The notes under the pieces were generated by a model. The model searched no databases, was not told the origin of the DNA, and saw only the letters and a program-made list of their open reading frames with translations. A stretch of 64,000 nt of DNA, from the NCBI RefSeq assembly GCF_007474545.1, contig NZ_VKOG01000002.1:248001-312000 (forward strand), read 5' to 3'. The stretch is from Chryseobacterium binzhouense (lineage in GTDB: Bacteria > Bacteroidota > Bacteroidia > Flavobacteriales > Weeksellaceae). The position numbers and the translations under genes were made by a program. Of the stretch, positions 11,964 to 30,450 are shown in pieces. Each line of letters opens with the position of its first letter. Positions within the stretch are counted from its first letter, which is position 1.

Positions 11964-12245
11964 TTAAAGAAAGAATGAACGTAGAATAGTAGCCGCTACA
12001 ATCAGGAAGATACACGCACCGAACCATGAAGCTGCCGTCTTCGAAGTATCGGGGTCGCCACTACTGAATTTGTTGTACACCTTAACGCCTCCGATAAGCC
12101 CAACCACCGCACCGATGGCGTAAATTAATTGGGTTGCGGGGTCGAAATAACTTGTTACCATTTGGGTAGCTTCGTTGATCCCAGCCGAACCATTTCCCTG
12201 TGCGAAAGAACCAATTCCTGACAACATCGCTACGGTTGCCAGCAA
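11964..12245 (-). CDS. traE: TraE-type transfer protein (DUF4134)
   Basis: The small exported membrane protein matches DUF4134/TraE: a signal segment to GSFAQG, then two hydrophobic helices separated by NKFSSGDPDTSK, resembling VirB2-type pilin layout. The first conventional start is TTG at 12245. The open frame continues upstream as ATT AAG GAA AAA CAA AGA AAA AAA GTT, adding a basic KEKQRKK stretch that a signal peptide needs. The real start may therefore be the ATT at 12272 or depend on a sequence variant. It is the first gene of the leftward block after the island. Confidence 0.85.
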   Translation of the reverse strand: MLATVAMLSGIGSFAQGNGSAGINEATQMVTSYFDPATQLIYAIGAVVGLIGGVKVYNKFSSGDPDTSKTAASWFGACIFLIVAATILRSFFL

Positions 12246-12323
12246 AACTTTTTTTCTTTGTTTTTCCTTAATTGAAACACATTAATTTGTTTTTGTTATC
12301 CCACACCTTGCGGGCTTTCGGGA

Positions 12324-12395
12324 CAAAGATGTTTCGGAAATCAAGGGGTTATAACAAAGTGGCAGTCAAAGGAATGATTTGGCGTTGAGTGGCAT
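12324..12395 (-). promoter_or_regulatory. ICE-type promoter of the traE operon (GCCAAA/TGCCAC element)
   Basis: On the minus strand the region has GCCACTC, ACGCCAAATC and then TGCCAC (first base at 12364). CATCTTTG follows at 12331-12324, close to the Bacteroidota -7 consensus TAnnTTTG. TTTG lies exactly 37 nt after the first base of TGCCAC. The same layout recurs at 18897, 30949 and 38274, so I treat it as a shared ICE promoter module. Confidence 0.6.
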
Positions 12396-12413
12396 AAATA
12401 TTTATCAAAATAT

Positions 12414-12460
12414 TTTGATTGTAAGAAAATCTTACATACTTTTGTATGAAATTCTTACAA
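12414..12460 (+). promoter_or_regulatory. Promoter and palindromic operator of the ACP-to-AcpS operon
   Basis: A -33 TTTG (12414-12417) and a perfect -7 TACTTTTG (12437-12444) are separated by 19 nt. Between them lies the perfect palindrome TGTAAGA-AAA-TCTTACA (12420-12436). A further half-site TTCTTACA follows at 12452-12459, just before the ATG at 12463. Occupancy would block RNA polymerase, so this is a likely binding site for the XRE repressor encoded in the operon. Confidence 0.7.
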
Positions 12461-12462
12461 TC

Positions 12463-12735
12463 ATGGAAATATTAGAATTAGAAAAAGAAATAATTGAGAT
12501 TATACAAGAAGTTTGTATTCATCAAGAAGTTGAAGAAGTCGTAAGTGGAAATTTCTATCCTGGAAATTTCATTATGAGTCAAGTGTTAGTTTCCATTTTT
12601 TCTCAAATTGAGATTAAAACAGGTATTACTATACCAAATGATTGCTATATTTTCCATGATCAAAAAACGAAGAAACAATTAAATATAAAAGAGGCTGCAA
12701 CGAAGCTATTAAAATTGTCAAAAAATGAACAATAA
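12463..12735 (+). CDS. Acyl-carrier-like protein
   Basis: The 90-residue acidic helical protein aligns with acyl carrier proteins by spacing. Ser39 in IMSQVLVSIF is followed 19 residues later by Pro58 of GITIP, as Ser36 and Pro55 are in E. coli AcpP (DSL ... EIP). The Asp before the Ser is replaced by Met, so overall similarity is weak. The AcpS-type transferase at the other end of the operon supports a phosphopantetheine carrier role. The ATG at 12463 was chosen over an upstream frame because the promoter ends just before it. The start of the XRE gene overlaps its end. Confidence 0.6.
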   Translation: MEILELEKEIIEIIQEVCIHQEVEEVVSGNFYPGNFIMSQVLVSIFSQIEIKTGITIPNDCYIFHDQKTKKQLNIKEAATKLLKLSKNEQ

Positions 12736-13063
12736 GGGTACTATGACTGAAAGAGAACAAATTGCTGAAAGATTAAAAGAAGCAAGGGTTATGTCTGGCT
12801 TGTCGCAAGAAAATGCTGCAAAAATCTTACAAATACAAAGACCAGCTATTTCTGAAATAGAAAGTGGAAAACGAAAAGTAAGTGCAGAAGAGATTATTCA
12901 ATTTGCTAAGTTGTACAAAGTAAGCACTTCATGGCTTTTGTTGAAAGAGGAAAATGAATCGGCTTTAGATGAGCAAACAAAAATTGCTGCAAGGGAATTG
13001 GGGAAAATGGATGAATCCGACAGAAAGAAGCTATTAGAAATCTTAAGAATACTTCCGAAATAA
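12725..13063 (+). CDS. XRE-family transcriptional repressor
   Basis: This 112-residue protein has a helix-turn-helix at about residues 12-65 (SGLSQENAAKILQIQRPAIS, then EIESGKRKVSAEEI) and a charged C-terminal tail that could interact with a protease. It overlaps the carrier-protein gene and is followed at once by an ImmA/IrrE gene, the known repressor-antirepressor arrangement of mobile elements. Translation may instead start at the Met at 12743. It probably binds the palindrome at 12420-12436 and represses its own operon. Confidence 0.88.
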   Translation: MNNKGTMTEREQIAERLKEARVMSGLSQENAAKILQIQRPAISEIESGKRKVSAEEIIQFAKLYKVSTSWLLLKEENESALDEQTKIAARELGKMDESDRKKLLEILRILPK

Positions 13064-13924
13064 ATGAATGAGTTATATACAAGTGCTATCCGAAAAGCAA
13101 GTGAAACAAGACTAAAATTAGGGCTCAGTTTATATGAGGCTATAAACATCTACGATGTTTGTTCTAAATTAAACATAGATGTACAATTCGTTGATATTAA
13201 TATGGAAGGTCTTTATGTAAATAATATCATTATGAACAATACAAGCCAACCCAAAATTATAATTTCACGTCTACGTCCGTTCCCAAGAAGAATTTTTACT
13301 TGCGGACATGAATTAGGTCATCATGTTTTTAACCATGGATTAAAATTAGATATTCTTACAGACGAAAATGACAACTCAAATTACAAAAGTGATGATGAGA
13401 AATTAGTTGATGCATTTTCTGCTCATTTGTTAATGCCAATTGCTTGTGTACAATCAGAGTTCAAAAAAAGAAAGCTTGATTTTAATACCGCAAGAGAAAT
13501 TGATTATTATATAGTTAGTTCTGTATTAGGGGTTGGATATCAAACGTTAATTACACATTGTAAAGTCAATATGTTAATGAATGAATATAAATACATGGAA
13601 TTATCTAAACATACACCTTCCAAAATATTCAAAAAGCATTTTGGCAACGTTGAAGAAAAAGCATATTTCAAGATTATTGATTTTAAAACAAATAATCAAC
13701 CTATTGATTTAGAAGTTTCAAACTACTTAGTTATTCCTTCTGATTTAGAAGTTGATAATAACTATTTAGAAAAGATAAAAAGCACAGAAGTTGGGACACT
13801 ATATTTAGCGAAAAAATCTGGAATATCTTCCATTTATTCAACAAGTGGTGAAACCAGTTGCTTTGTGAGAATCCAACCACAGAACTATATTGGTTTTGCG
13901 GAATATAGACATTTAGAAAACTAA
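13064..13924 (+). CDS. ImmA/IrrE-family metallopeptidase
   Basis: The 286-residue protein carries the zinc-peptidase motif HELGHH (FTCGHELGHHVFNHG, about residue 85) and a downstream DAFSAHLLMP segment, both typical of ImmA/IrrE proteases. Members cleave or inactivate the neighbouring XRE repressor in response to damage signals. The C-terminal part (about 190-286) is additional and may sense a ligand. The ATG follows the repressor stop without a gap, so the two are coupled. Confidence 0.88.
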   Translation: MNELYTSAIRKASETRLKLGLSLYEAINIYDVCSKLNIDVQFVDINMEGLYVNNIIMNNTSQPKIIISRLRPFPRRIFTCGHELGHHVFNHGLKLDILTDENDNSNYKSDDEKLVDAFSAHLLMPIACVQSEFKKRKLDFNTAREIDYYIVSSVLGVGYQTLITHCKVNMLMNEYKYMELSKHTPSKIFKKHFGNVEEKAYFKIIDFKTNNQPIDLEVSNYLVIPSDLEVDNNYLEKIKSTEVGTLYLAKKSGISSIYSTSGETSCFVRIQPQNYIGFAEYRHLEN

Positions 13925-13928
13925 TAAA

Positions 13929-14672
13929 ATGAATATACCAGTACTAATAGAAGAGAATAATTTATCGAAAGCATGGTGTAAAGTGTTACAACATATAATC
14001 GATAACTCGGGTAATGAAATTACACCATTAGTTTTGACTTTATCTGATTTTGACGAGGATAACACTATAAAAAACGAATTGAACAAAGATTTGGCAGAAC
14101 ACCAACTAGATTCAATTGATATTGTTTCTGAAACAATATTTCCACAATCTTTATATCTGTTTAACAAAAGTAACCGGCAAGAGTTGTTTAGATTGTATTT
14201 AGAAAACGTTTTACCAAGACTAAAGAAAATTGATAAGCGAAACAGTGCAGGAACTTATTTTGAACGCCTTATAGCATTTGGAGACAGTAAAAAGAATCAA
14301 TTAGAAATAATAATTGATTCTTTAAGTGAAGACTCTAAAATAAAACGTCGCTCGAAATCACAAGCTGCTATTTTTGACCCATTAAAAGACCATAAAAATG
14401 GCGTATTCCAGAGTTTTCCTTGTTTACAACATGTTTCATTCTATAAATCAGAAAATGGAGGATTAATAATAAATAGCTTTTATGCTATGCAGTATTTGTA
14501 TCAGAGAGCTTATGGAAACTGGTTAGGGTTAATCAATCTTGGAAAGTTTGTAGCACAGCAAGCTGGATTAGAATTGGAACGATTTAATTGTTTTGTTGGA
14601 GTTGAAAAATTAGACCATTTAACAAAAGCTCAAGCAAAAGGATTAATAATTAAAATGAAGGTAGAAAACTAA
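13929..14672 (+). CDS. Thymidylate-synthase-like protein with altered substrate pocket
   Basis: The 247-residue protein shows the thymidylate synthase C-terminal order. An Arg pair (IKRRSKSQAAIFDP, residues 139-151) is followed by a catalytic-type Cys165 in FQSFPCLQHVSF, equivalent to LPPCH. QRAYGNWLGLINLGKFVAQQ (192-211) matches QRSxDxFLGxPFNxxxY. The Cys and Arg are kept, but the dUMP-contacting Ser and Asp of RSxD are replaced. This suggests one-carbon or similar chemistry on a different pyrimidine. The assignment is mine from motif alignment by eye. It lies 4 nt after the ImmA gene and overlaps the next start by 1 nt. Confidence 0.62.
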   Translation: MNIPVLIEENNLSKAWCKVLQHIIDNSGNEITPLVLTLSDFDEDNTIKNELNKDLAEHQLDSIDIVSETIFPQSLYLFNKSNRQELFRLYLENVLPRLKKIDKRNSAGTYFERLIAFGDSKKNQLEIIIDSLSEDSKIKRRSKSQAAIFDPLKDHKNGVFQSFPCLQHVSFYKSENGGLIINSFYAMQYLYQRAYGNWLGLINLGKFVAQQAGLELERFNCFVGVEKLDHLTKAQAKGLIIKMKVEN

Positions 14673-15706
14673 TGAGTACAATAGCTAAAAAGCAGAACAC
14701 TTTTACAATATATAAGCCATTATTACCTGCTAAAACAACAGAGGTATTTGATAGCTATTGGAGGTTTGCGGTATTACGACAAGATGTTTTTTTTAGTCGA
14801 ATACAAGGGGATAAATATCCTTGGACAAACGACCCCATTTTATCTAAACATAAATTTACAAATGCTTACAGGGCTTCGGATAGAGTAAGTCAGTATTTAA
14901 TTAAGGAAGTTATTTACAATGATGATTATTCTAACTCACCCGATGAAGTTCTTTTTAGAATACTGTTGTTCAAATTGTTTAACAAAATTGACACATGGGA
15001 ATTGCTAAAAAAAAATATTGGAGACTTAAATTATGAAGAATTTGATTTTAAAAGGTATGATAAAGTTCTAAGTAAGGCTTTCGCAGAAAAGAAGACAATC
15101 TATTCAGCAGCATATATAATGCCTTCTGTAAGGCAATTTGGCTACGAGCGAAAACACTCAAATCATTTAAAATTGATAGATTATATCTTGAAAAAAGACA
15201 CTTCTATACAACTTATGGATTGTAACAAAATGCAACAAGCATTTGACATTGTTAAAAGTTTTCCGGGATTAGGCGATTTTTTAGCGTATCAAATTTTAAT
15301 TGACATTAATTACTCTAATATAATTGATTTTTCAGAATCAGAATTTGTAGTACCTGGCCCTGGAGCTTTAGGTGGAATAAGTAAATGCTTTGCTAATACA
15401 GGAGGGTTAAGCAATGTTGAAATCATTAAACTAATGACCGATAGGCAGGAAATGGAATTTGAAAGATTACAGTTAGATTTCAAAACACTTTGGGGAAGGC
15501 GATTACAACTGATAGATTGTCAAAATTTATTTTGTGAAGTAGATAAGTATGCAAGAGTAAAACATCCTGATATAAAAGGCAATAGTGATAGAGTAAGGAT
15601 TAAGCAAGTGTACAAACTTAACTCTAAACCTATTGACTATTGGTTTCCTCCAAAATGGGGAATTAACGAAAACATTATTTCTGATTTAAAGAATAAAATA
15701 CTATGA
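14672..15706 (+). CDS. 5-hmdU DNA kinase helical-domain / thymine pyrophosphorylase-like protein
   Basis: The 344-residue protein contains SYWRFAVLRQDVFFSRIQG, YPWTNDPILSKHKFTNAYRA, a helix-hairpin-helix-like SFPGLGDFLAYQIL and LQLIDCQNLFCEVDKYARV. I recognise these as the HMUDK_hel family, annotated as 5-hmdU DNA kinase helical domain or alpha-glutamyl/putrescinyl-thymine pyrophosphorylase. In phages such proteins are predicted to act on hydroxymethyl-pyrimidine bases during hypermodification. No separate P-loop kinase domain is present. Its neighbours fit a base-modification pathway. It overlaps the next gene by 4 nt. Confidence 0.72.
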   Translation: MSTIAKKQNTFTIYKPLLPAKTTEVFDSYWRFAVLRQDVFFSRIQGDKYPWTNDPILSKHKFTNAYRASDRVSQYLIKEVIYNDDYSNSPDEVLFRILLFKLFNKIDTWELLKKNIGDLNYEEFDFKRYDKVLSKAFAEKKTIYSAAYIMPSVRQFGYERKHSNHLKLIDYILKKDTSIQLMDCNKMQQAFDIVKSFPGLGDFLAYQILIDINYSNIIDFSESEFVVPGPGALGGISKCFANTGGLSNVEIIKLMTDRQEMEFERLQLDFKTLWGRRLQLIDCQNLFCEVDKYARVKHPDIKGNSDRVRIKQVYKLNSKPIDYWFPPKWGINENIISDLKNKIL

Positions 15707-16287
15707 TAAAACAAATTAAGAAAAAGTTTTTTGACGACAACTATATATCTGGGGAGCAAATCCCTAGATATTTTAACGTGTCATTTAAAGAAGTAGGAAA
15801 TGACCAAAAGAACGAAGTAAGAGTAATTTTTAATGGAACTGAACAACTTGGAGATGTTATTAATGACAACTCTTATAAAAATGATTACTATCGTTATCAT
15901 GATATATTTCATTATTCGTTTGCCGCTCTATTGGGATGGTCTCCATGTACAAGAGCCATGATGAAAAGAAAACGAAAAAGTAACACTTTGGTTGATGAAA
16001 TAGAAGACGGTGCAAGAGCCACAATTACGGAGGAAGCAATTTCTATGATTATATTTAATGAAGCAAAAAGAAAGAATTTTTTTAAAGGAAAATCAAAAGT
16101 ATCAAAAACTACTTTGAGAATAATTAAAGAAATGACAGAGAATTTTGAAGTAAGCGTTCGTACCTCTGAAGAATGGGAATATGCCATATTACAATCTTAT
16201 GCTGCTTTTAGATTTCTGATATCAAATCAGGGCGGTCTTATAGAATTTGATACAGCAAATAGAAAATTAAAACATATTTCATTTTAG
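15703..16287 (+). CDS. MazG-like (nucleotide pyrophosphohydrolase-like) helical protein
   Basis: This 194-residue mostly helical protein has YRYHDIFHYSFAALLGWSP, a basic TRAMMKRKRKS, and VDEIEDGARATITEEAISMI. I recall this layout from proteins annotated as MazG-like nucleotide pyrophosphohydrolases. The acidic cluster DE-ED-EE could bind Mg, while the HD pair in YHDIFH could instead indicate an HD-type hydrolase. A house-cleaning or activating role on a modified nucleotide fits the operon. The exact reaction is unknown. Confidence 0.55.
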   Translation: MIKQIKKKFFDDNYISGEQIPRYFNVSFKEVGNDQKNEVRVIFNGTEQLGDVINDNSYKNDYYRYHDIFHYSFAALLGWSPCTRAMMKRKRKSNTLVDEIEDGARATITEEAISMIIFNEAKRKNFFKGKSKVSKTTLRIIKEMTENFEVSVRTSEEWEYAILQSYAAFRFLISNQGGLIEFDTANRKLKHISF

Positions 16288-16289
16288 TA

Positions 16290-16664
16290 ATGATTATTTC
16301 AATTGGCTGTGATATAGTAGAACATACTGTTTCACGAAAGTTAGATTGGGAAAATAATAGAGCTATACAATCTAGAATCTTTTCTAATAGGGAGTTAGAC
16401 CTCTGTCCAGCAAAAGGAACACTACAATTTCTTTCGGGTAGATTTGCGGCAAAGGAGGCTATTCTAAAATGCTTGTTTACAGGTATGGAAGACGGAATTG
16501 CTTTAACCGATATTGAAATATTAAAAGAAGATGCAGGAAGACCAAATATAATCTTATCAGGTACTCCACTACACCTATCTATATCTTTAGGGATTAAGAA
16601 CTGGCATGTTAGTATAAGCCATTCTTCTTCTTTCTCTCAGGCTTTTGTTATTGCTGAAGGATAA
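16290..16664 (+). CDS. acpS: AcpS-type 4'-phosphopantetheinyl transferase
   Basis: The 124-residue protein has the AcpS signatures GCDIVEH (residues 6-12, Mg-binding Asp), FLSGRFAAKEAILK (about 47-60) and WHVSISHSSSFSQAFV near the C-terminus. It should transfer phosphopantetheine from CoA to a carrier-protein Ser, most plausibly Ser39 of the small protein opening this operon. A dedicated AcpS in a mobile island implies the carrier is not served by the host enzyme. It is the last gene of the operon, 2 nt after the MazG-like gene, and converges on traD with a 6-nt gap. Confidence 0.88.
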   Translation: MIISIGCDIVEHTVSRKLDWENNRAIQSRIFSNRELDLCPAKGTLQFLSGRFAAKEAILKCLFTGMEDGIALTDIEILKEDAGRPNIILSGTPLHLSISLGIKNWHVSISHSSSFSQAFVIAEG

Positions 16665-16670
16665 AAATCC

Positions 16671-17306
16671 TTACACAAACTCCCCAATGTCAAAATCATT
16701 CAAATCACTTTTCCGCAAAGTGGAAGAACTGGCATCCGTTTCAGAAATGATTGTGCTATCCAAAAGCTCGGCAATTTTTCTGGATGCACCGTCTATGGAA
16801 TTTTCCAGTAGACTGAATAATTCGGTTCCCTGTATTTTCTGAACTATAGCTATCGCTGTTTCCTTTTGGGCTGTTTCCAACTTTTCTTTTTGGAGCAATA
16901 CCCCCACGGAGCTTAGTTCTTCAAAAGTAACCCCTTGGGCTAAACCATTATTGCCACCGGATATTCCATACCTTTTCCATTCTTCTTCCTCTTCCTCAAA
17001 ATCAGGCGTATTACTAAAAACCTTATCCAGCTCTTCCTGCGGAATTTGAATACCTAAGTTTTCATTCTCGTCGTATTCTATGTCTAAATTATCAGGATTA
17101 AAATTTGGTTCCTCCACTTGGCGATCAGTGGCGGTGTTTGGCACTAATTGGCTTCTTATAGATTTCGGTTGTCCCATTATATCTGGATGATTAGGATTGA
17201 CTTTTTCCTGTTTCGGCTTTTGCTCCGACCTCTTTTTGATAACAATCTTATCATGCAACAATAGCCCAATGACTATCAGCAGGCATATTACAATTAATGT
17301 TTCCAT
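16671..17306 (-). CDS. traD: Conjugal transfer protein TraD-like
   Basis: This 211-residue protein has an N-terminal membrane helix (residues 3-17), a basic stretch, a long acidic low-complexity region (residues 60-115) and a helical C-terminus. Position after traA and traB matches the TraD-type protein of CTnDOT-like elements. No catalytic motif is visible. It lies 5 nt after traB. The island genes converge on its 3' end, which marks the left-hand tra block boundary. Confidence 0.7.
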   Translation of the reverse strand: METLIVICLLIVIGLLLHDKIVIKKRSEQKPKQEKVNPNHPDIMGQPKSIRSQLVPNTATDRQVEEPNFNPDNLDIEYDENENLGIQIPQEELDKVFSNTPDFEEEEEEWKRYGISGGNNGLAQGVTFEELSSVGVLLQKEKLETAQKETAIAIVQKIQGTELFSLLENSIDGASRKIAELLDSTIISETDASSSTLRKSDLNDFDIGEFV

Positions 17307-24990: not shown

Positions 24991-27900
24991 CTAAAATATA
25001 CTACGAGGTATATGAATACCTTTTGTCCGTATAATGCCTTCCTGAAATTTTGGAGTTTCTTTCTGCTTTTCCACTTGCTCCAGAGCATCTGCTTTTTTAT
25101 CTGGCGAAAGGGATAATTGTATCTTCCGGTCAATGCCCGCTAATTCGGTTTTTAGTTCGTTTAACCGCTTCTCTTTAGGCCAAGTACCATTAACAACCTC
25201 CTGAAGTATCGGTATATTTTTTTGGAACTCTGCCATATGTTCCTGTTCTTTTTTGATATAAGTTGGCAATTTTTCCAATGCCCTTAGAAAGTTCAGCGAA
25301 GCTGTTTCAGGTTCTTTAGCCATTACACCATTGTTGAAAGTGTATTTAATATTTCCCTCACCCTGTATAAAAAAACGGTTATGTTTTTCAACAAGACTGC
25401 TACTGTCTTTTTGTGTCATTTCAGTTTTAACCAAAAGCTGAAAACCATAAAGGCTGCCGATTTCTTTATAGTCACCACCTGTATGGGCTTTGTCCGCCAA
25501 TTCATTGAGTTTCGCTCCAATCTGTTTTACATTTGAGGTTGGCGGCAGGTCGGTCAGTTGAATTGCATTGACAACTGTACCGTCCTGTTTTTTCTGAATA
25601 CGTCCTTGAAGGTTAGTCCAATCAAGGCTCATCCTGTCAAAGCGGGATTGAGCTTTACCCAGTTCTGCCGTAAAATCTTCCAGCTTGTATTTCGCACTTG
25701 ATTTGGAACGGTTAAACGCCTGTTTTTCGCTTTCCAATCCTGCAATCTGTTTTTCTACTTTGGCTTTATCCAACAGGTCAGTATTTCCCGAAAGAATTGC
25801 TACATATTCTGAGAAATTCATTCCCGATTTTTCGTCCATACTGCCCTCATCAATAGTACGTTTACCGAGATTATTGGATTTTAATTGGTCGATAAATAAC
25901 TGTTTATTGAACAACAGATTAAACTTATAACTATCTAGTGATTTTTCAACGGCATAGATAACTACATCTACTTTATTATCGGCAAAGAACTTGGCAATCT
26001 CATTGCCTTTGCGGATTGCTCGACCATCACGTTGGGCAAGGTCACTTGGTCGCCAAGGTGTGTCCAGATGATGAATGGCAACAGCTCTTTTCTGTGCATT
26101 GACACCTGTACCGAGCATACTTGTTGAGCCGAATAACACACGGATTTTGCCCTCATTCATTCCTTTAATCAGTTCCTTACGTTGGTTGTCCGTTTTTGCT
26201 TCCTGTATAAAGCGTACTTCGTTTGCAGGTATACCGTGGTCTTCCACGAGTTTGCGTCTAATTTCGGAATACACATTCCATTCATTAGGCTTATACGTTC
26301 CCAAATCCGAGAACACGAACTGCGTTCCTTTCTGTGCGTTGAATTTGTTGTAATATTTGGCAATATTACCTGCACAATGTGAAGCCTTGCTATCGGGATG
26401 GTCTTTGTAAGCTCCGCTTACCATTTGCATATCTAATGACATCTTACGGGCATAGTCCGTAGCAATCAGCATCTTTGCTTTTTCTTCTGTTGGAGATAAG
26501 GGCGGTCTTCCCAACAAGACTGCATTTCCTGTTTTGGCAAATTCCATCAGTTTTTTAATAAATACATCCTGGTCGGGAGTTGGTGGAATGTTATACAGGA
26601 TTTCATTTTTTACAGGTCGGTCGATACCAATATCCTTTGCAGTACGATAATCTGTAATTTCCGAATAGAACTGTGCAAGCTCTGGTACTTTGATAAAGTA
26701 GCGGAAACGTTCTTTTGCCACGATATTATTGGCAACCGAAAACTCATAGTCAGTCGTTTTTCGGGCATAGATTGCAGCCCAAGCATCAAAACAGTTAATG
26801 CCTTGTTTTTCCAATGCTCGTGGTCGCAGGTATTTGAACAGGAGGTACAATTCCGTTAATGAATTGCTGATAGTCGTTCCCGAAAGAAAGGTTGCCCCCA
26901 TATCCGCATCGGTACGATCCTGTATGGTTCGGATAGCAAACAATAGGTTCAGAGCTTTTTGGCTACCGTCCGCGTTACCCAATCCCGCTACACGACTGTG
27001 ACGGGTGTTGAACATCAGGTTTTTAAACTGATGGCTCTCGTCGATAAATAAATGGTCTATGCCCATCATTTTAAAATCGACAATATCATCTTTGCGATTT
27101 TCAATATCGTGCTGTAAAGTCTTTAGCTTTACTTCGAGGTTTTCTTTCCGTTTAATGGACCCGGCAAGCATACCTCTTGTTACTTCAGCTCCCTGCGACT
27201 GCATCGCATCGAGGTTTCGCTCCACATTATCCAATTCTATTTCGAGGATTTCCTTTTGAATTTCTGGCGATTGCGGTATCATACCGAATTGGTCGTGTGT
27301 TAAAATCACACAGTCCCAATCGTTGTTTTTAATATCTCCGAAAATTCGCAGGCGTTTTTGCGGTGTAAAATCTTCTTTGCCCGGAAAGAGGATTTTAGCG
27401 TGCGGATAGGCAGTGCGATAGGCTTCGGCGATTTCGTGCACATTACTTTTCAGCCCGATTATCATTGGTTTATGAGCAAGTCCCAAACGCTTCATTTCCT
27501 GTGCTGCCGTACACATTATCAATGTTTTTCCTGTACCTACTTCGTGATCGCAGATAGCACCGTTATTGAGTTTAATCATCAATACGGCATCTTTTTGACT
27601 TCCGTACAGGTCTTCAATGCCCAATGCTTTACGGTCTAATCCCGGAAACTCCTGATGGCTTCCATCATAGTTTGGGCGAACAAAACAATTAAACTTATCA
27701 TTGTATTGGTCGGTTAGCCTTTTTTTAAACTCATTGCTCTGTGCGTGTAACCAATCGGTAAAAGCGGTACGTATTTCGTCAATCTTAGTGTTTGCCATCT
27801 GTATGGCTTCCATATCCTTTACTTTGACTTCCTTGCCGTCTATTTCGACTTTTTTGGTGATATCGGGCGTCGTATTGACAAGAGCGTGTTTGAGCAGAGC

Positions 27901-30450
27901 AACGCCATCAAACGTCCTGCTTTCAGCCTTTACCGCATATTTTACCCATATATTTTGATTGCCCCGATTACAGATTACGGAAAAATCATCGGAACTGTCG
28001 GAATAATGGATATTCACTTCCGCATCGAACAGGTGTGAAGCAAATTTGGCATAAATACCTGTGGGTATCCAGCGTTCACCAAGGTTAAAGTCCAGTTCCT
28101 CAAATTCGATACGTCTTGGTCGGGCTTCTTCCAATACCATAAGGCTGTGCTTTGCTTCGGTATCTTCGGGATTGCTTTCTACATATTCTATTATTTCCTG
28201 TGCTTTTTCTACCACGTTACCGGCTATCCAGCGTTCGGAAATTTCGTATTCACTTTGCAGGGGATTATAAAAAATACGACCGTGCAGAGCATCTTTCAAG
28301 GCATCTGCAGACATACTGCTGATTTCGGACATATAGTCCAAATCAACACTTCCGTATTTATTCAATGAGGATGCTAATGCTTCTTCGGGATTATCGGTTG
28401 CTAATGTTGTCGTGGAAAAACTTACAGGATGGCTGAAAATATCCGCTTTATGGATAACACTCCCTTTTACACGCTCCAAATAAGGGATTTCTTTTCCGGC
28501 ACTATCCGTCTTAATCAGCTTGATATTATCGGCACTGTTCAGACTACCGTACCTTTTTACAAAAGCATCGTACAGTTGGTTTAAATTTTCTCTTTCTGCC
28601 TTATGTTCGGTTTGTAGTTCCGCTTCTTTATTGTAAAGCTGTTGGTAAATATCACGTACTCCGATATACGCTTCGGCTCTTGCTTTCTGTAAAGAAGGTA
28701 ATTGCAATGGGTAGAACATTGCAGTTTTATCCACTTTATCTACTTCCTGTAAATGACCTACCCAACCATTATCAACCACAAGGCAATCGTTACGATGGAA
28801 CGATTGCAATTCGCCACTATACGGAGCAGGCTTAGGAATGGCTGCAAGAACAGGTACGGAAATAGCTGGTTTATCAGCCTGGTCATTTCCGTTAGACTGC
28901 GAAAATAAATCGCGAATAATTTCCTGTTTTGTTCCGTTGGGTGGAACGATTCTATTGACCGAGCCATTGGAAACTGAAGGCGTATAAGGTTGCTGCATTG
29001 CTGAACTGAACAGGTCGATTTGGCGACCAATGTTAGCCCGTTGTTTTTTGGTAGTTTGCTTTTTAGATTTCGTTGCTTTCTTTGGTGGAGTTAAAACCGC
29101 TATGTTTTCATCATCATTTTCAAACAGGTCGAAAATGCTTAACTGTTTTAATTCCTGCGGACTTTCCAGTATGATGGCTGATTGTGTTAAACGATGTTGT
29201 TCCGGCTGAATGATTTCACGCTCTTGAATTTCACGTTCAATAACTGGAGGTGTAACAATGGGCTGTGTCGGAATTTGAACAATAGGTTCATCATTCCGTT
29301 TTTCTTTGTACAAAGACAAGTTTAAATGCTTTCCAAAATCATCGGAAAGCATCTGTTCAAGGCTATTTGCAATGCCCTCAACACCCTTGTTGTGTGTATA
29401 GATTAAAGCAGGTTGCCCGTAAGGGTCGGTAGCTACTTTCCAATGTGTATGTACAATTTGTCCACTTTTATCTAACAAAGCATTGCTTGGCGTACCGTAG
29501 CCTGTTTTCGTACTTTGGCAAAATAAATCTTCTCTTTCGGTCAGACCTTGTTTTGCTGTGTTCCTTTGCAGGATAATCAAATCGCTTCCTACTTCTGTAC
29601 CTGCATATTCTGTAAACAGATTGTTGGGCAGACGGATAGCTGCAACCAGGTTATTATCCTGCATCAACGCCCTGCGTATGGGTTCGTTCTTTGGGCTGTT
29701 AAGTATGCCTTGCGAAGTGATATAAGCCAATATACCGCCATCACGGAGCATATCAGCACCTTTCAGAAAAAAGTAATTGTGTATGCTTCGGGCAGCCTGA
29801 ACCTTTGCACTGTCCTTACTTCGGGAATAGGAAAGGTCGAATACAGAAGTATCGCCGAACGGGATGTTACTGGCAATTACATCATAGCTGTTTTGCTCCC
29901 TTTCAGGTATTTCCTCGAACCCGCTTATACGGATATTGCTTTCGGGGTAAAACTGTTTTAAAATCTTACCTGTAAGCAAATCCTTTTCATAAGCGGTAAC
30001 ACTCGCTTTTTGGTTTTCATAAAAGGACTGTATAAATGAGCCAATACCTGCGGAGGGTTCGAGAAATTTCTGAATGTTCAGACCGCTATCACGCAAGGTT
30101 GTGGAAATAGCATCTATAACCTGTGGCGGTGTATAAAAAGCCGTTAGTACAGAACTTTTCATACTATCCACATACCTGCGATATTGCTTATCGTCTTGGG
30201 AATTTTCTTTGAGTAGTTGGTGGAGTTCCTGCGTAGGCAGGAAAAGGTCGTGTTCCGTTTTTCTCCAATTATTGATGTCTATTTCGTTCTCTACGGGGTT
30301 CAGAACGAATTTAAGACCGCCAAATCCGCTGTATTGCATCATTAGCAGTCTTTCGCCTACGGTGGCTTGACGGTTCTCCTTTTCCAGTTTAAAAGCAATT
30401 CGCAGGGCATCAATGTTCTGTTGGAGATGTTGGCGTTTACTGAAGCCCAT
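24991..30450 (-). CDS. Giant N6-methylase-like / SF2 helicase fusion of the ICE
   Basis: The 1819-residue protein has an N-terminal methyltransferase-like domain ([11 protein letters not shown] near 135; SNIPFGD near 195 in place of NPPF). A middle region follows, then an SF2 helicase: Walker [17 protein letters not shown] near 970, DESH box [11 protein letters not shown] near 1136, SGTTISNS near 1185 and motif [16 protein letters not shown] near 1478. The C-terminus is coiled-coil rich. Such proteins are common in Bacteroidota ICEs and may protect incoming DNA from restriction. It overlaps the DUF1896 gene by 14 nt. Confidence 0.88.

Follow-up and report, generated by a model that had tools for sequence, protein, structure and literature searches.

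Gene Content of the Island

We analyzed a 64,000-nucleotide stretch of the Chryseobacterium binzhouense genome (RefSeq assembly GCF_007474545.1, contig NZ_VKOG01000002.1, positions 248,001 to 312,000; hereafter the window), in which a seven-gene island is carried by an integrative and conjugative element (ICE). The seven open reading frames (ORFs) extend from 12463 to 16664 on the plus strand, abut or overlap, and are antisense to and embedded within the conjugation operon. An earlier note on this DNA, made from the letters alone, had described a compact operon opposite to and inside the tra operon, and all seven ORFs were indeed recovered, with short overlaps or gaps between them. The genes are as follows:

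12463..12735, plus strand: acyl-carrier-protein-like (ACP-like) protein, 90 aa, with carrier serine Ser39
12725 or 12743..13063, plus strand: XRE repressor, CapH-like, with an HTH_3 domain and a PADLOC match
13064..13924, plus strand: ImmA/CapP-like metallopeptidase, Peptidase_M78, with the HExxH motif present as HELGH
13929..14672, plus strand: thymidylate-synthase-like (TS-like) protein, with Cys165 invariant across the family
14672..15706, plus strand: HMUDK_hel protein, PF18723, named in Pfam as the helical partner of the 5-hydroxymethyldeoxyuridine (5-hmdU) DNA kinase
15703..16287, plus strand: MazG_C domain protein without a MazG part, PF18722, 194 aa
16290..16664, plus strand: AcpS, holo-ACP synthase, PF01648 and TIGR00516

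Pfam searches with the window proteins assigned XRE to HTH_3 (E = 1e-13), ImmA to Peptidase_M78 (E = 3.4e-8), HMUDK_hel to PF18723 (E = 2e-109), and the MazG_C protein to PF18722 (E = 6e-67). AcpS scored 79.1 bits against TIGR00516 (cut-off 59.8) and matched PF01648 with E = 3.7e-16; the genome holds one further PF01648 match, located elsewhere. The families named in the earlier note were confirmed, with the correction that its MazG-like protein consists of the MazG_C domain alone. None of the seven proteins matched a restriction enzyme, a P-loop kinase family, or the amino acid:DNA transferase (ADDT) family in Pfam. Likewise, PADLOC models gave no match up to E 0.1 for the ACP-like, TS-like, HMUDK_hel, MazG_C, and AcpS proteins of the window.

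Conservation and Spread of the Gene Set

Relatives of HMUDK_hel were sought in 84,980 genomes, yielding at least 584 stretches, of which 293 were confirmed and the best 80 of these 293 were analyzed. The HMMs applied to the loci were built from known operons and then refined by iteration on these same loci, ORF starts were assigned mechanically by script, and MazG_C, AcpS, Tmk-like, and DCD-like (dCTP-deaminase-like) proteins were scored as present anywhere within a locus. In 59 of the 80 loci (loci are given below as L numbers), we found a core on one strand consisting of the ACP-like and XRE genes, followed by ImmA and then the TS-like gene, and HMUDK_hel lay downstream on the same strand in 57. 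A stricter recheck of gene order retained 58 of the 59 core loci; the exception, L080, exceeds the distance limit only, with a peptidase gene intervening. MazG_C was present in 41 of the 59 loci, AcpS in 33, and a papain-like peptidase in 4. The core is represented in 12 phylum-level groups. The neighborhood survey proposed to decide whether these genes belong together therefore showed that they co-occur elsewhere in a fixed order, and chance clustering was ruled out by the 59 loci keeping ACP, XRE, ImmA, and TS-like genes together.

Among 17 plasmid regions fetched, nine carry the core. It occurs in plain form on plasmids of Allocoleopsis, Nostoc, Sinorhizobium fredii, and Streptomyces, and together with a papain-like peptidase on plasmids of Bradyrhizobium, Rhizobium ruizarguesonis (where the TS-like gene is divided between two ORFs), Sulfitobacter, Burkholderia, and the archaeon Haloarcula. 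The haloarchaeal plasmid (L010) combines ACP, XRE, ImmA, a C1 peptidase, and TS with a PPTase, HMUDK_hel, and tmk. A reciprocal survey with the TS-like profile found 6 positives among 395 genomes of the phylum of the window (Bacteroidota), five with the core (own genome included) and one with TS-like and MazG_C only; the TS-like gene was absent from the 98 relatives examined, its own genome excepted. The gene set is thus conserved but patchy.

Some further observations concern the core. A papain-like C1 peptidase lies between ImmA and TS-like in L006, L010, L014, L015, L016, L023, L041, L075, L080, and L102. Metallophosphoesterase–TS fusions were found near the core operon at L051:9577-11757 (727 aa) and L079:505-2817 (771 aa). 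ACP, XRE, ImmA, and TS-like families were also present in four of nine IMG/VR contigs classed as viral (L100-L103), so that phages or prophages may also carry the core.

The Carrier and TS-like Proteins

The ACP-like protein of the window alone matched no Pfam family above the cut-off (best E 0.13), and PP-binding matched 4 of 63 family members. The family profile, compared with solved acyl carrier proteins, gave E 6.5e-9, placing the family within the acyl carrier superfamily, as had been proposed. The carrier serine is invariant (63/63 aligned rows). The residue before it is Asp in 49 of the 63 rows and Met in the window.

For the TS-like protein, TIGR03283 was matched below its cut-off (E = 3e-13), and PF00303 matched 4 of 48 family members. 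Comparison of the family profile with a phage TS by hhalign (probability 88.8%, E 2.5e-6) aligned the catalytic Cys and indicates membership of the TS superfamily, in agreement with the first description; Pro164-Cys165 is kept in all 48 rows. The RSxD substrate motif is diagnostic of canonical TS and hydroxymethylases. In the hhalign alignment, AMQY of the window stands opposite RSND of the phage TS; in an alternative register set by eye, Arg could correspond to Lys/Arg193 (48/48), but Ser and Asp would then face Ala194 and Gly196. Because the motif is not intact, ordinary TS chemistry is doubtful and the substrate or cofactor has probably changed. The nearest solved structure to the profile was CMP 5-hydroxymethylase, which we take to act in a nucleoside antibiotic pathway, with a weak match (E 0.013). 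Ordinary thymidylate supply was rejected as a function on the grounds of the altered RSxD motif and the patchy occurrence of the gene (6/395 phylum genomes; 0/98 relatives besides its own).

HMUDK_hel and Phage Hypermodification Clusters

The structure of HMUDK_hel was predicted with a pLDDT of 95. Its top fold match was the phage 5-phosphomethyl-dU glycinyltransferase 8z2m (probability 0.96, E 0.067, TM 0.38-0.43), and helix-hairpin-helix DNA glycosylases were among the next, weaker matches. Searches for solved-structure relatives of the phage HMUDK_hel proteins, and for an E. coli DNA relative of Pseudomonas HMUDK_hel, returned none.

In Pseudomonas phage MP1412, a Yuavirus, the HMUDK_hel homolog directly follows the P-loop 5-hmdU kinase HMUDK_HMUD1, and the cluster nearby comprises ADDT (gp10), radical SAM, Nmad5, and TS genes. 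In Salmonella phage Mutine, a Kuttervirus, it follows a gene annotated as MazG-like, for whose product no Pfam family was found. MP1412 and Mutine are presumably kin of M6 and ViI. Pseudomonas phage M6 and Salmonella phage ViI are described as containing aminoethyl-type modified thymidines (PMC6449724). The HMUDK_hel homolog is hence common to phage thymidine hypermodification clusters and the island, and the suspected link to pyrimidine or DNA modification gains support from these phage pathway homologs. MP1412 resembles the island further in having a TS besides HMUDK_hel, with a P-loop 5-hmdU kinase in addition, and the MazG-like-annotated gene of Mutine may be compared with the MazG_C gene of the island. 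In contrast to the phage clusters, the island lacks ADDT, radical SAM, and PLP enzymes and adds a carrier protein, AcpS, XRE, and ImmA. The possibility that HMUDK_hel is itself a kinase was rejected, as it matches no P-loop family and, in MP1412, is encoded by a gene of its own next to that of the P-loop kinase.

Partner Enzymes of the Core

MazG_C is preceded by a MazG part in 30 of the 36 rows of the alignment, the exceptions being the window, L020, L022, L068, L093, and L095; Pfam confirmed the MazG domain in L006, L041, L045, and L083. No solved structure matched the MazG_C model (pLDDT 93) significantly. Of the 59 core loci, 21 have a Tmk-like kinase and 20 a DCD-like ORF. Tmk-like and MazG_C proteins were nearly exclusive (both 7, Tmk-like only 14, MazG_C only 34, neither 4; Fisher p = 1.4e-5). 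They appear to be interchangeable at a single step, which fits the description of MazG-C as a "predicted nucleotide kinase" in the DefensePredictor report (PMC13092281). Fusions were observed between a Tmk-like domain and HMUDK_hel (L032, the Tmk-like domain being confirmed by Pfam there only) and between HMUDK_hel, MazG, and MazG_C (L041, L045). UDG replaces HMUDK_hel in loci of Bradyrhizobium, Sulfitobacter, and Burkholderia (Pfam-confirmed in L006 only).

Pairwise distances of ACP, XRE, ImmA, and TS-like proteins track each other with rho 0.76-0.90, whereas the values with these four are 0.66-0.73 for MazG_C, 0.57-0.69 for AcpS, and 0.49-0.58 for HMUDK_hel. Since the loci were chosen by HMUDK_hel similarity and the rho values are uncorrected for ancestry, this suggests, rather than establishes, a core of four genes whose base-acting partners can be exchanged.

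Five loci with HMUDK_hel or MazG_C/UDG (L008, L009, L018, L019, and L097) are without the ACP-XRE-ImmA-TS core, L019 having a TS-like gene. They carry TIR (by annotation), Nmad2 (by Pfam in L008, L009, and L018), SIR2, SLOG (by Pfam in L097), or phospholipase genes, and are apparently effector-linked cousins. The TIR-Nmad2 loci of Parabacteroides (L009), Gloeothece (L008), and Cupriavidus (L018) have HMUDK_hel, UDG, or MazG_C in common with the island family; unlike in the island, the core was not found there.

Control Region

Just upstream of the carrier gene, we identified two 18-base, near-identical palindromes, 23 bp apart, around the promoter-like element TACTTTTG:

12419..12436, no strand: operator-like palindrome 1, core TGTAAGA-AAA-TCTTACA
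12437..12444, plus strand: promoter-like element, fitting TAnnTTTG, which we take to be the consensus of the Bacteroidota -7 element
12442..12459, no strand: operator-like palindrome 2, 89% identical to palindrome 1, start-to-start distance 23 bp

A palindrome and a -7-like element were both present in five of nine upstream regions of Bacteroidota; two of the four negatives, L050 and L142, represent one genome, and a third, L143, has a palindrome but no -7-like element. Shuffled sequences contained both elements in 0-1 of 1000 cases per row, with patterns that were set after viewing three sequences. When only one palindrome was sought ahead of the carrier gene, 26 of 58 loci were significant at the 5% level. 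We therefore base the putative operator on the two palindrome copies and the promoter-like element.

The best PADLOC matches were capH for XRE (3.9e-14) and capP for ImmA (7.4e-16); for the helix-turn-helix of XRE, other XRE models score about equally well. CapP is described as a peptidase activated by single-stranded DNA (ssDNA) that cuts CapH, and the pair as controlling adjacent immune operons (PMC13373217). The arrangement outlined in that source, an XRE repressor and an ImmA-type peptidase preceding the operon, recurs in the island, which, however, places the carrier gene first. The similarity to CapH/CapP and the palindrome–promoter layout support the proposed control by XRE and ImmA, which would make the operon repressible.

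Cargo Spot of the ICE

The island occupies a flank-to-flank interval of about 4.4 kb (12246-16670) between two genes that we take to be the conjugation genes TraE and TraD:

11964..12245, minus strand: left-flank conjugation gene (TraE), edge of the cargo spot
16671..17306, minus strand: right-flank conjugation gene (TraD), edge of the cargo spot

Of 79 genomes of the genus, 59, among them the source genome of the window, hold a homolog of the left-flank gene (38-99% identity), and 20 closer copies were fetched (L145-L164). In two of these 20 relatives, the right flank was not found within the fetched stretch; in the 18 measured, the interval ranged from 388 bp without an ORF of at least 120 aa (L163) to more than 9 kb. 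The contents differ between relatives, and the island consequently occupies an accessory-cargo position of the ICE family. A total of 59 cargo-spot ORFs were obtained, of which 10 were examined singly with PADLOC and 10 with Pfam. Among the best 25 of 402 matching models, GajA and GajB of Gabija each matched 4 of the 59 ORFs. Five of the 10 proteins examined singly had a PADLOC match; Hachiman occurs in L157, a type I methyltransferase in L154, and a PADLOC candidate in L148. Defense systems are thus frequent, but not exclusive, cargo at this spot.

Interpretation and Rival Explanations

We interpret the island as a mobile, DNA-damage-inducible, and most likely anti-phage system that modifies pyrimidine deoxynucleotides with the help of a dedicated carrier protein, a reading that we hold with middling confidence. 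In the resting state, XRE would keep the promoter shut. Upon phage attack or DNA damage, exposed ssDNA would lead ImmA to cleave XRE, as CapP does with CapH. AcpS would then load phosphopantetheine onto Ser39 of the carrier, and MazG or DCD enzymes, where present, would supply dNMP or dUMP. The TS-like protein could activate the pyrimidine C5 via Cys165, and HMUDK_hel and a kinase partner would work on the modified base, perhaps a 5-hydroxymethyl-type pyrimidine, while the arm of the carrier would hold or supply the attached group. The altered nucleotide or DNA would finally bring phage replication, or the cell itself, to a halt. The donation of a group by the carrier to the nucleotide or to DNA is something we infer.

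Several results weigh against this reading. The full core is missing from 21 of the 80 genome loci, of which 14 have, among the families scanned, HMUDK_hel alone or with MazG_C, six have a TS-like gene with an incomplete core (several on short contigs), and one has XRE/ImmA; it is also missing from 8 of the 17 plasmid regions (L008, L009, L011-L013, and L017-L019). The window copy is without Tmk, DCD, and the MazG part, and no carrier-loading enzyme is found among its seven genes. The RSxD motif of phage TS is not intact in the TS-like family, the fold match of HMUDK_hel to the glycinyltransferase is modest, and HMUDK_hel shares no sequence relation with the ADDT family. In the window itself, a single palindrome is not significant, as 42 of 200 shuffled sequences score at least as high. 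Moreover, the same cargo spot also holds efflux and P-type ATPase genes, a TonB receptor, a methyltransferase, and transposase or insertion sequence genes.

A variant of the proposed mechanism, which we regard as unlikely, is that the phosphopantetheine arm itself reacts. The TS-like protein and the pair of HMUDK_hel and kinase would make an activated 5-substituted pyrimidine, and the thiol of holo-ACP, or a group on it, would be joined to this base, tagging phage DNA or nucleotides. The haloarchaeal lineage of L010 to our knowledge lacks bacterial fatty-acid synthesis; as this plasmid brings a PPTase into it, the arm appears to matter without a fatty-acid supply. If true, a small protein or pantetheine cargo on nucleotides or DNA would amount to a carrier-protein tag or adduct against phage DNA. 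A pathway to a diffusible modified nucleoside or nucleotide with a viperin-like effect, in which the carrier holds an intermediate and DNA remains unmodified, also seems unlikely to us. It could draw on CMP 5-hydroxymethylase as the best solved, if weak, match of the TS-like profile and on the nucleotide-using kinase and pyrophosphohydrolase partners, and a carrier with its own AcpS fits biosynthesis; but HMUDK_hel resembles folds that act on DNA, UDG substitutes for it in three loci, and the core includes neither an exporter nor a loading enzyme. It is improbable, in our estimation, that the TS-like protein and the carrier instead serve mainly as sensors of nucleotide or metabolic status that permit ImmA to cleave XRE, with HMUDK_hel, MazG_C, Tmk, and UDG as effectors. 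The tight co-variation of TS, ImmA, XRE, and ACP distances relative to HMUDK_hel would suit such a switch, yet choosing loci by HMUDK_hel narrows its range and may alone lower rho, ancestry being uncorrected, and the invariant catalytic cysteine and carrier serine are as expected of catalysis.

Depletion of nucleotides, by which MazG, DCD, and TS-type enzymes would drain dCTP, dUTP, or dTTP upon infection and the carrier and HMUDK_hel would be regulatory, strikes us as quite improbable: the frequency of DCD-like ORFs, MazG_C, and MazG parts in the family speaks for it, but the window island has no DCD gene or MazG part, and HMUDK_hel and the invariant carrier serine would be left unexplained. 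The earlier note had left open whether the operon serves defense or marks the ICE itself. Self-marking, a modification shielding the DNA of the element during transfer, would agree with the location within an ICE and with 15 of 23 TS-like plasmid records being typed as conjugative; nevertheless, we consider it very improbable. The layout suggests repression, and related ICEs differ in what the cargo spot holds. Defense is favored because known defense systems share the ICE position in relatives, because the set also occurs on plasmids and at L140, L142, and L143, where the tra proteins of the window had no match in the 15-18 kb fetched, and because there is no restriction enzyme among the seven proteins.

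Relation to Known Systems

Among the matches listed in our literature searches, there was no ACP-linked set and no acyl-carrier anti-phage system; Iyer 2013, Burroughs 2015, Lee 2018, and Lee 2022 may describe part of the set. The DefensePredictor report names a TS and a 5-hydroxymethyluracil kinase as newly validated anti-phage domains; aGPT-Pplase, MazG, and MazG-C are predicted ones (PMC13092281). Its domains (TS, dNMPk, 5hmdUk, and NMAD in the Fig. 3 legend; aGPT-Pplase, MazG, MazG-C, and UDG in the text or legend for Fig. 6F) overlap with the enzyme families of the island; its main text has no match for "carrier protein", and an overlap with one of the systems drawn there is possible (PMC13092281). 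The enzyme families are of a known kind, that of nucleotide-modification conflict systems, to which the carrier-protein core would add an unusual chemical idea. Relatives of phage hypermodification enzymes here reside in a bacterial, mobile, and apparently repressible operon together with a carrier whose serine is invariant. As the core extends across 12 phylum-level groups and to an archaeal plasmid, identification of one product would explain at least dozens of loci, and the island offers direct tests of HMUDK_hel and MazG_C, two poorly understood domains. Elsewhere in the window, an ORF of 1819 aa lies on the minus strand (24991-30450).

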